Part shown: one piece after another, positions 54,773 to 59,285 of the stretch
How positions within the stretch are numbered: position 1 is the first letter of the stretch
How the letters are laid out: each line of letters opens with the position of its first letter
DNA from: Marasmius tenuissimus
Taxonomy: Eukaryota; Basidiomycota; Agaricomycetes; Agaricales; Marasmiaceae
DNA length: 64,000 bases
Assembly (NCBI GenBank): GCA_029532415.1
Contig: JAQOTA010000044.1
Location: 62,001-126,000, forward strand
Direction of reading: 5' to 3'
The notes under the pieces: generated by a model
What the model saw: the letters and a program-made list of their open reading frames with translations, nothing else
Told to the model about the DNA's origin: nothing
The model's database searches: none
Made by a program: the position numbers and the translations under genes

Positions 54773-57700
54773 ATGCCAAGATCTCAAAACCAACAAGTCT
54801 GCACTGAACCCGGATGCTTATTCAGGGACAGCGTCCCTAATACCAAAGGCCACAATTACGCCTACCACAATACGGAGTACAAGATTCACTGGAAAGACTG
54901 TGAGCAGTATTGCCATGTCTCCTACTGCGTCAGCCGGCTCACTCTACCCACTCCTAGATAACGGCAAAAAGAGAACCGCAACTATCAACAGAGGTGAAGA
55001 CGGGAGGGTACGATGTCCCTGCAGAAACGGCGGCCACGATTGTTATGATGTGAATATCATCTACAAAATATGCAAGTTGAAAATGCATCCACCACGATTC
55101 GACACAACGTTCCGCGATAGCCCACAATCCGATGATCTGAACGACGAGATAAACGAAGAGGACAGTGTTGGCGCCGTGATCGATGAAGAGGGAAATGTTG
55201 GCGCCATTATGGATGGAGAGGAGGATGCTGACGTTGTGATGGATGGGGAGGCCGTGGATCCGCTACGCTCATGGGAATCCATGTACGAAATGGGGCAGGT
55301 GGGCTCCTACTCTCATGAGGAACTCACTCTGTCTGAGAGCCCCGCCGAGACAACCGTTAGCACAGCATTGCTCGTTGACGGCGATACCCCTTCCTTCCTC
55401 CCAACCCGCGATCCTCCCGCGAGCAACCCAAATATGTCCACTGGTAGAGTTCTTTCGCGACTCATCCTCGTAGCAGTGACTAACGTATTAGAAGATTCTC
55501 AGGGTCTTCCTCATCCGACCCAGACTGCTGATCCTTTCGCACAATTTTCAAAACATTGCAAGAAGGCCGGTTGCCAATTTCCTTACGACTCAAGCGGTAG
55601 CCACGGTAAAGCTTATCATAGCGAGTACAACCGGATATGGTATTGTGGTAAGTATCTGTACTTTCATTCGGCGGGCATGGTTGACACGAGTCCGAAGGGA
55701 AACAGGAGACAATGCGCAGGCAGGCTGATGACAAAATACCATGCCCTTGCGGAGCTCCCCCCCATGCCCGTCACAACCACCACAAAGTCTCGCTACAATG
55801 CAAGCTTCCAACACACCCTGATCCTAGCGACGGATCACAGTATCCCGACACATATGGCGATGATGCCCTGGAGTTCGCGAGGTACAAGTCAATGATACAA
55901 CTAGTGCCTCACGCTTCCCACATCCCCCAACCTTTGCTGCTACCACCCAGAGGTCGTACACCTATTGAAGGGGATAATTCCATCCAGCCTTTCAGCGGCG
56001 ACATGGTGTCGGGCCCCGTCCGAGTCATTCCTCCAGCTCCTGTTCCTCCACCGCTTTCATCACAAAATTCCTTTCCAGCACCTGCTTCACCAGCTCCGGG
56101 TCTCGTGGATACGCATATATCCCTTTCGTCTCCTCCCCTATTGACCAGTTCGCTGCGGAGCAATGATGAGCTGCTGTCGGACCGCGGTGAGTTGCAGGAC
56201 AATGACGAGCTCCTGCTAGATGACGATGAGCTCCTGCCGGGTAACGACAACGATAACGACGACGATAACGACGATTACGACGACGAGTCACTCTCTGAGT
56301 ATGATCAGGCAATACGTCAGCTGAGGAAGCTCCAGACTGTAGTGGTGCAGTACAACCGCACTGCATGCCTCCAATGTCTCAATCTCGTCCGGTGGGACAA
56401 TATGCACAGCCACCAGAGAACCCACCTGCCGGCGCGTTCCCGCGGTTGTCTCCCTTCAACTGAAGTCTTCCGAAAGCTTCTGTGTGCCGCTCGTGCAGAC
56501 AACCCAGAGGAATTCGGGAGTGGGCCCATTCAACGACTTGACTATGTCAAAGACGTAGAAGCCTACAAGTGCGCAGAAGCTGGTTGTGGCGTTATCAAAG
56601 GGGCAATCAAAACTTTGAGAACACACCAACGAGAAGCTCATGTCATACCCAAGGGTCGTTCGGGTCGCTACGCGGTGGTGAAATGCCATGAAACGGACCA
56701 GTTCAATGCGTACAAGGACTGGGTGGAAATCCTCCCTACAGAGGCGGTCACCCCCTCAGATATTGTGGCGACAATCAAGAGGGCTGCGAAGAAGGACAAC
56801 CTTTATGGAGAATCCCCTTCCTCTATCTTCCAGGCAGCCCAGTCAGTCCAGGAGAAGAACGTGCTGTATGGCATCCTAGGATGGGATGAACACCTTCAGG
56901 GAACTCGAATCCGATCTATCCGCCTTGCTGCAAGTGCCAGTCATCACACCTCTTTTCCCTGTCACACGTATGTGAAGATAGCAGCTAAAGCCCACTTTCA
57001 GGCTGTTGGGACAAAAGTATCAAAACTACAAGACCTGACTCTTCGGCGCATTCGCTCGGATGTGGTTGGGTATGTTTTGAGTACGATTGATGGGAACACA
57101 TCATTGGACTTACACTCTTACAGGGCACTCCATCGCCACACATTCAAAAGGCCACAAGAGTCCCGCACGATGGACAGATATGCTAGCTTTACAGCGCGCT
57201 TCATCTCTTTCCTCTTGATCGTGATGGAGAACCCTATCGCAGGCTTCCCAGTTCCACTTCATCCTGAGACTGAGAGACTCCTCCACGAGCTTCAGAGCAG
57301 AGTGCTAGTCGCGCTAAGGATGGCACCCCCGGAGAAGAACAATTCTGACCTAGAGGGTACTGGCGAGGACAATCTTGATAGCATGGATGAATTTGATGAT
57401 GAAGATGAGGACGAGGATCTCTTTGATGATGAGAGGGATGTAGAAATGGAGATCAATACTGACATGGTCAAGGAGGACAAGATCGAGGCAGAGGATGAGC
57501 CTAACGATGGGGATCACTGCGGTGCACACCTTTTGAATGTCATGGCTTCTATTCACGATGTTCTCTGGTCCCTCCTCTGCCAGCCTTCGGAGGCGTATTG
57601 CAACAATGCCCAGCTTTGCCCACTGAAGAGATTTATCATCGCTTCACATCTCCAGAACGATGATGGCCAAGTCGCTGAGCCTGCCCAGATTCCACCCAAC

Positions 57701-59285
57701 ATTGCTGCAATTCTGTGGTGTTTACGAGGAACTGCTGTTTTGAAGATCTTGGGGCTGAGGGGAAAATATTCGACCATGCATCAGTGAGTTGAACAGTTAT
57801 CCTTGCTCAGGATGTCACTTACTCCTGATAAGAGCATACATTCAAGAGGTGGAACAGCACCTGACTGTAGGTCAGCAGAATCTCTTCACCTCACTGAGAG
57901 ATACAACCAGCCAGCTGTCGCGCATTGCGGGCCTTCAGCTCCGCAAAGCACGTTTTGATCTTGACATGCGTAGTGAGCACATCTCACTGGATGGGCAGCC
58001 AGTCTGCATCGAAACCTTTTTCGATTCTATCCGCGCTCTCACAGAATCAACCTTCCAGAGAGTCGAGGCAGATATTTTACCCCAAGGATTTCCTACGAGT
58101 GAACTAATGGTCCGCATTGACAATGGGATCAATCAGAGGAAATCGGGTGCTTCACAGCGCTTCATCGACAGAACAAACAACATAGCACATGGCTACTGCT
58201 TCATAGATGAGGAAAAAAACGGACTCTCAAAGTTCATCAACGTATTGATGAACAGTCTGACTAAGGATGAAAAACTAGTACTCTACCAACAGAGCAATAA
58301 AGGTTATGTTCCTGCGACAGGTGAAGTAGTTGACTGGTTTCTCTTGTTTGACCTGTTGTGCTTATCTGACACACAGGGAACATCAGCAGATGGTTCAGGG
58401 CGCTTGATGATGTTGTCAAGACTTTATACTACCTCATCCAGTGCACTTGTGGCGGTGGGGCTCGCAGCACTGAGTTTCAACGTCTCCTCTTCAGGAATGA
58501 AGCTACGCGACCTCGCCACTTCCAGTTGGTTGGTGGCTCTCTGTCTATAATCACGACCTATGTCAAATCCCAGTCCTGCACTGGCAGAGGCATGCCTATC
58601 ATTCGGACTCCAGCTTTCGCAGTCAGTCGGCTCCTGATACTTGTTTTTGGGATCATCTTCCCCGCTGCTGCTCTAATTGGGAATCATACCATCTTGGGCA
58701 CAGAGAAAGCTAGGTGTTACGCACACGGGACATTCATTGAGAGTGGTGTGTGTATGCCTGCTCATAAGCTCTCTGCTGCCATAGGCCTCCATACTTCCCA
58801 GACAATTCAGTTGACACTGAAGCAGAAAGATTTCCGACAATTGATGACTACCCTACAGGTCGCTTTTCTTACAGTCTCCGGGATCGCAGAGCAGAACGAA
58901 ACAGGCACAAGATTGGTCCACGAGATGTTTGGCCGGACCCTGGAGACTGGTCAGAAGCAATATATTATTGATGTTCACAATGCACAATCTCGGATATCTG
59001 TGGACAGGCGGACGGTCATGCAAACACTTTCTCACAAGTGGCACGAGCGAATTGGTCTGCCTCATCCAGATCTACACGATGACACCCAGGCGGGCAACGA
59101 AGTATGTGCTATCCCTGTACCATCAAATTGCGCCTAATCAGACCCTCTGGTTTCAGCCACAGGTTTCTCTGGCTCAAGTTGATGCTCTGATCACACAAAG
59201 GTTGAATGAGGCGATGCAGGCGCAGACACAAGGTTGGTTTGTGGATATGCGCACAGAGCCTCGACTCATATCACATAAATTATGA
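54773..59285 (+). CDS. OrsD-type zinc-finger protein with tyrosine-recombinase-like C-terminus
   Basis: Six exons: 54773-54899, 54958-55647, 55698-57783, 57833-58320, 58377-59101, 59157-59285, giving 1414 residues with all phases consistent. Two copies of a Cys/His module lie near residues 10-80 (CTEPGC…HNYAYH, then CPC…CK…HP) and 246-305 (CKKAGC…H…H, then CPCG…CKLPTHP). Acidic linkers follow. An OrsD-like double finger is near residues 495-580 (CLQCLNLVRWDNMHSHQRTH; CAEAGCGVIKGAIKTLRTHQ). A helical region contains HTFKRPQESRTMDRYASF. The C-terminus has GGARSTEF (Arg 1160), TTYVKSQ, KDFRQLM and GRTLETGQKQY (Tyr 1326). This gives R, K, KxxR and Tyr with tyrosine-recombinase spacing. Relatives are the N-terminal halves of Agaricomycete TLH-type RecQ helicases. 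No helicase is present here. An extra in-frame 48-nt intron at 55444-55491 is possible. Confidence 0.8.

Follow-up and report, generated by a model that had tools for sequence, protein, structure and literature searches.

A tyrosine-recombinase-like domain in relatives of fungal telomere-linked RecQ helicases, recognised from a gene of Marasmius tenuissimus

We describe a gene of the fungus Marasmius tenuissimus that lies in a stretch of 64,000 nucleotides of contig JAQOTA010000044.1 (C29:62001-126000; this whole stretch is called the window below, and its assembly, GCA_029532415.1, comprises 71 Mb in 70 contigs). One exon of this gene very probably encodes a domain of tyrosine-recombinase fold. 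The gene is related to fungal telomere-linked helicases, and in the full-length members of its family what we read as a divergent tyrosine-recombinase domain is fused to a RecQ-type helicase. The motifs, their invariance, the match of the predicted fold, the fusion, the presence of subtelomeric copies and the purifying selection were all computed here. We consider it likely that in canonical members the domain, with its tyrosine-recombinase fold, is a working DNA breaking and rejoining enzyme, and doubtful that the window copy is active; the latter would probably be a derivative that stands alone or is in decay. An earlier note on the same DNA, drawn from its letters and reading frames, had proposed an enzyme of this kind within a protein usually described by its OrsD domain or as half of a telomere-linked helicase. 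This interpretation is supported in part: it is borne out for the predicted fold, the invariant residues and the helicase family, and falls short on the histidine of box II and on the window copy, which is atypical. For the likeness to Cryptons that the note had raised, no evidence was found in an analysis that included no Crypton sequences.

Subtelomeric RecQ genes have long been described. In the open-licence literature searched, the pairing of a recombinase with RecQ did not turn up, and no paper was found that contained all the terms joining telomere-linked helicase genes with a tyrosine recombinase. Ever since they were reported from Ustilago in 1998 (a report cited in PMC10532341 and PMC7473861), it has not been clear what these helicases do. 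The gene described here, which is related to theirs, carries an unlabelled domain that resembles enzymes that cut and rejoin DNA and that has kept, among the relatives of the gene, most of the key residues, which makes the role testable: given a conserved recombinase-like active site upstream of the helicase, one could assay whether its tyrosine becomes attached to DNA, and at which sequence. If true, one more tyrosine-recombinase family, with recombinase and RecQ paired in it, would stand beside the few known in eukaryotes.

Catalytic residues and their conservation

Four motifs are present in the exon at the codons where the earlier note had read them, namely GGARSTEF (arginine codon 58463), TTYVKSQ (lysine codon 58565), KDFR (arginine codon 58835) and FGRTLETGQKQY (tyrosine codon 58961). 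The residue numbers given at that time, R1160 and Y1326, are reproduced by a six-exon gene model, with 166 residues from arginine to tyrosine. Shuffling the residues of the domain produced a comparable motif pattern 5 times in 200,000, for a pattern that was defined after the sequence was seen. Conservation is a fairer test than these shuffles, because the positions had been named before any alignment existed.

Relatives were sought with three queries. The exon by itself scored none of 400 candidates, a set from which a limit on length had kept full-length relatives. The spliced protein of the copy on contig C19 gave 34 homologs at E≤0.01 (6092 candidates), one of which, P0002 (PM082_004121), is the copy on contig C5 of the same genome. 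With the window protein, only P0035 was found among the 7996 scored candidates sharing most words. The homologs come from Marasmius, Moniliophthora, Lentinula, Collybiopsis, Desarmillaria and Suillus, which we take to be Agaricales, except for Suillus (Boletales). The window copy, the C19 copy and the 34 homologs make up the 36 rows of the alignment, from which P0035 was excluded as it lacks the exon. Gaps in these rows stem from P0034, P0026 and P0028, each of which is without parts of the domain. The rows with a complete domain, leaving out the window, are 32 (31 homologs and the C19 copy).

In all 32 of them, the arginine of box I, the lysine, the arginine of box II, the histidine of box III and the tyrosine are invariant. 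Every relative with a complete domain thus keeps both arginines and the tyrosine, on whose conservation the earlier note had staked its reading. The glutamate of box I is found in 35 of the 36 rows (one gap), and the tyrosine stands 9 residues past the box III residue. Invariant columns are few (24 of 243 in the 32 rows), and all five predicted positions are among them; the sole invariant lysine and the sole invariant histidine of the domain are the predicted ones. The chance of invariance at the five positions, matched for residue type, is about 0.0003 if the relatedness of the rows is ignored; the rows are not independent, as P0002 is the genome's own C5 copy and many homologs are from Lentinula.

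The family therefore retains 5 of the 6 residues usual in the active site of tyrosine recombinases. Two boxes of the earlier note do not hold as written in the relatives. Its KxxR box keeps the arginine in all relatives with a complete domain, but the lysine is found in the window only. Its G-R-T box is indeed present in the window, but in the 36 rows the three positions hold G 29, N 4, A 1; H 33, R 1; and S 30, G 2, N 1, T 1, with two gaps at each.

Predicted fold, domain architecture and genomic copies

The predicted structure of the exon product is a tyrosine-recombinase fold, as the earlier note had anticipated, and the match to the catalytic domain extends over exon residues ~5-169 of what is a predicted structure only. 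The model is mostly helical. Its strands, at residues 47-51 and 54-60, are followed by the lysine at residue 63, after which residues 64-67 have a predicted local distance difference test score (pLDDT) below 50. A profile built from 73 Xer, phage and E. coli recombinases aligned with the family collinearly across boxes I, II and III, with a score of 20.45, a comparison that by itself would not convince. Likeness to the Xer, Cre and lambda-type tyrosine recombinases resides in the predicted fold, in the R, K, R, H and Y residues, and in the spacing of 9 residues from box III histidine to tyrosine. The family differs from them in having no conserved box II histidine and in being fused to an OrsD region and RecQ, and no sequence-family match between them was detected.

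Domains were scanned in 30 of the 34 homologs at E≤0.1, yielding DEAD in 26, OrsD in 25, ResIII in 24 and Helicase_C in 21. The helicase is of RecQ type, matching RecQ, BLM and RECQ1 chains with E from ~1e-43. Full-length members consist of a Cys/His (OrsD) region, the recombinase domain and the RecQ-type helicase, in this order. The first modelled exon of the C19 copy lies ~4 kb from TTAGGGG telomere repeats, and with the DEAD and OrsD counts this upholds the link to telomere-linked helicases that had been suggested. The relatives share a RecQ-type helicase and an OrsD region, and some copies a subtelomeric position, with the telomere-linked RecQ helicases described in Ustilago (UTASa/UTASb), Agaricus bisporus var. 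burnettii and other fungi. What is added here is the description of a tyrosine-recombinase domain, which those other genes may or may not share; the window gene differs in lacking a helicase. An OrsD domain is noted in Ustilago UTASb (PMC10532341), RecQ genes are placed near some Ganoderma telomeres (PMC10817607), and a study of Trichoderma reports that it found none there (PMC4812632).

In the genome of the window, the telomere repeat TTAGGGG, of seven bases, was seen at three contig ends (C19, C5 and C29). Contig C29 begins with CCCCTAA repeats, and the window gene is ~117 kb away from them; the copy at C5:3909k is ~50 kb from TTAGGGG repeats. A unit of 7.5 kb is common to the C5 and C19 copies, with 92.5% identity (C19:3071860-3079381, C5:3906999-3914470). 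Beyond this unit, no more similarity between the two was found in the stretches compared, and its edges are abrupt. No stops occur in the pieces compared. The ratio of nonsynonymous to synonymous substitution rates (dN/dS) between the two copies is lowest in the recombinase exon (0.069 over 242 codons), the values elsewhere being 0.087-0.110 for the three preceding exons, 0.204 for the helicase exon and 0.386 for the last exon. We conclude that purifying selection acts between the C5 and C19 copies. Along the gene, synonymous divergence (dS) drops from 0.46 to 0.05, and the later (3') exons may accordingly have undergone gene conversion.

Other copies were observed, all copy counts for this genome being lower bounds. 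A divergent OrsD-containing copy at C5:3860k (C5:3857000-3866900) matches through part of the recombinase at 23%. Another, at C16:463k (C16:459000-468900), is matched in its N-terminal half only, and its recombinase part was not seen within the 9.9 kb examined. At C28:3188000-3197900 there is a broken copy of the window gene (72-79% DNA identity) whose recombinase part is interrupted by stop codons. For P0031 and P0004, two proteins of the M. tenuissimus record that also holds P0035, the best matches in this genome reach just 47% and 72%, an indication that strains differ in the copies they carry.

Proposed mechanism and alternative explanations

Tyrosine recombinases act by attack of the tyrosine on DNA, formation of a 3'-phosphotyrosyl link and strand exchange, and the mechanism that we propose for canonical members is based on this chemistry. 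The two arginines, the lysine and the box III histidine would activate a DNA phosphate, which the tyrosine would attack to give the covalent 3'-phosphotyrosyl link; the strands would then be exchanged and rejoined. The Cys/His region may select the site, and the RecQ motor may open or remodel the DNA. We infer this activity, along with a target and mobility, and the likeliest use would be to let the gene propagate its unit from one chromosome end to others. It is distinctly possible, though we say so tentatively, that telomere-linked helicases are not in essence helicases for telomere maintenance but form a class of mobile elements of tyrosine-recombinase type, equipped with a RecQ motor and spreading from one chromosome end to another. 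The helicase would then have been noticed because it is recognisable, and the defining enzyme, the recombinase, missed; standalone copies such as that of the window would be remnants or spin-offs. Starship captains are likewise fungal tyrosine recombinases that move DNA, and they are reported in the basidiomycete Tremella (PMC13066641). Here, in contrast, RecQ is fused to the recombinase, and the shared unit is of 7.5 kb against 42-606 kb for the Tremella elements (PMC13066641). The 30 relatives scanned matched 11 Pfam families at E≤0.1, none of them of captain type, in a scan that included no search aimed at a captain model.

A number of results weigh against a mobile and active recombinase, and they are given here with the explanations that they favour. 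In the 7.5-kb unit of C5 and C19, no terminal repeats, target duplication or element ends were recognised. It is possible that ordinary exchange among chromosome ends has multiplied the subtelomeric copies, the recombinase having another role, and the drop of dS along the gene is what gene conversion would be expected to leave. This explanation sits poorly with the broken copy on C28, which is deep inside the contig (3192k of 4244k), and with the abrupt edges of the unit, though exchange can produce such edges too. The pattern of the unit could fit a recombinase element and chromosome-end exchange alike.

The classical R-H-R-Y tetrad is incomplete. At the position three residues before the box II arginine, where a histidine or lysine is usual, the 36 rows hold R 12, S 9, Q 6, A 5, K 1 (the window) and 3 gaps. 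This position varies, with exceptions to the usual histidine, in other members of the superfamily too; its variability is our main ground for calling the domain divergent and for regarding the activity as putative. The window copy departs further, by the arginine that replaces the histidine of box III. It would be consistent with both observations, although we find it rather unlikely, that the domain derives from a recombinase and now binds DNA or protein with no cutting, in the manner of domesticated Crypton derivatives (DUF3504 genes, Cbf2/Ndc10, Gcr1). Such domesticated tyrosine recombinases do occur in fungi and animals, but are described as having lost the tyrosine and other catalytic residues (PMC3212892), whereas here all 32 rows keep R, K, R, H and Y, and the recombinase exon is the best conserved one between C5 and C19. 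Cryptons themselves are likewise tyrosine recombinases of eukaryotes, fungi included (PMC3212892). As differences from the present family, the words helicase and RecQ have no occurrence in the text of that paper, and the domesticated genes have lost catalytic residues.

As to the window copy, no helicase match was found in the window, and the gene terminates at 59285; a RecQ-type helicase in the same protein is a feature of the relatives that the window gene lacks. Compared with the broken copy on C28, the window gene has 30, 32 and 26 differences at the three codon positions in the recombinase exon, and 16, 10, 23 and 62, 63, 80 in the two preceding exons. Without a third-position excess there is no clear sign of constraint in the recombinase exon, the test being a weak one as the partner is broken. 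A further explanation, which we judge unlikely, is that the family consists of enzymes of the same fold resembling type IB topoisomerases or telomere resolvases, which would relax or resolve chromosome-end DNA, and not of transposon recombinases.

The remaining adverse results concern the assignment of the fold. The box III and tyrosine stretch of the model has pLDDT values from below 50 to ~66, and the tyrosine is for this reason unplaced in the model. Foldseek gave no match at E≤0.001. With the model of the relative P0022, no recombinase was present among the 50 Foldseek matches listed, unlike in the VIA second look, which did yield one. Profile scores as high as 20.45 also arose in 4 of 200 shuffles by column and 10 of 200 by block, and the profile alignment pairs neither the lysine nor the tyrosine with its counterpart. 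Integrase families were not matched in Pfam, PHROGs or NCBIfam, nor was there an integrase among the 60 PDB sequences listed. In a scan of the genome, PF00589 had seven matches at E≤0.1, all of them short of the cut-off and away from the copies of the gene, and of the 27 and 19 pattern matches in viral and prokaryotic contigs, respectively, none was confirmed by tblastn. That the motifs are coincidental within an unrelated helical domain, as the lack of a significant family match, the weak profile score, the mostly helical model and the Foldseek result would allow, is nevertheless very improbable and close to refuted already.

Gene model and other features of the window gene

The features of the window gene are collected in Table 1. 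Its introns are 49-58 bases long, all of them GT-AG, and the frame of 1414 amino acids has no internal stops. The first two introns match those of P0035, the model deposited for this gene under a different M. tenuissimus record; across the part that it covers, P0035 is 97% identical to the window gene. The last three introns were chosen from the reading frame and from likeness to relatives, with 59162 as a possible alternative for the last acceptor. P0035 stops at 57784, the start of the third intron, and 57784-59285 is outside it; the recombinase exon is consequently missing from that deposited annotation.

Table 1. Features of the window gene (positions in the window; row counts refer to the 36-row alignment)
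Feature	Position	Strand	Basis
Window gene, 1414 aa, six exons (54773-54899, 54958-55647, 55698-57783, 57833-58320, 58377-59101, 59157-59285)	54773..59285	+	Spliced frame open, GT-AG introns
Cys/His motif 1 (CTEPGC...H...H), zinc-finger-like	54800..54868	+	Pattern, residues 10-32 of spliced protein
Cys/His motif 2 (CKKAGC...H)	55557..55619	+	Pattern, residues 243-263 of spliced protein
OrsD-like region, flanked by Cys/His motifs 3 and 4	56366..56641	+	Pfam OrsD, tblastn, relatives
Exon preceding catalytic domain	57833..58320	+	Kept in relatives
Exon encoding tyrosine-recombinase-like catalytic domain	58377..59101	+	Conservation and predicted fold
Box I arginine, R1160	58463..58465	+	R 35, gap 1
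Predicted active-site lysine, K1194, directly past modelled beta-hairpin	58565..58567	+	K 35, gap 1
Box II arginine, R1284	58835..58837	+	R 33, gap 3
Box III position, R1317 (Arg in window, His in relatives)	58934..58936	+	H 33, R 1 (window), gap 2
Predicted nucleophile tyrosine, Y1326	58961..58963	+	Y 34, gap 2

The exon that precedes the catalytic domain matched no known fold, and we would guess at a core-binding role for it. OrsD is detected in the window gene by Pfam at E=0.068 with 14.1 bits, under the cut-off of 26.6, and tblastn of P0002 aligns to 56351-57304 of the window, at the OrsD-like region. Nearer the start of the protein, Cys/His motif 1 would, judging from its pattern, bind zinc.
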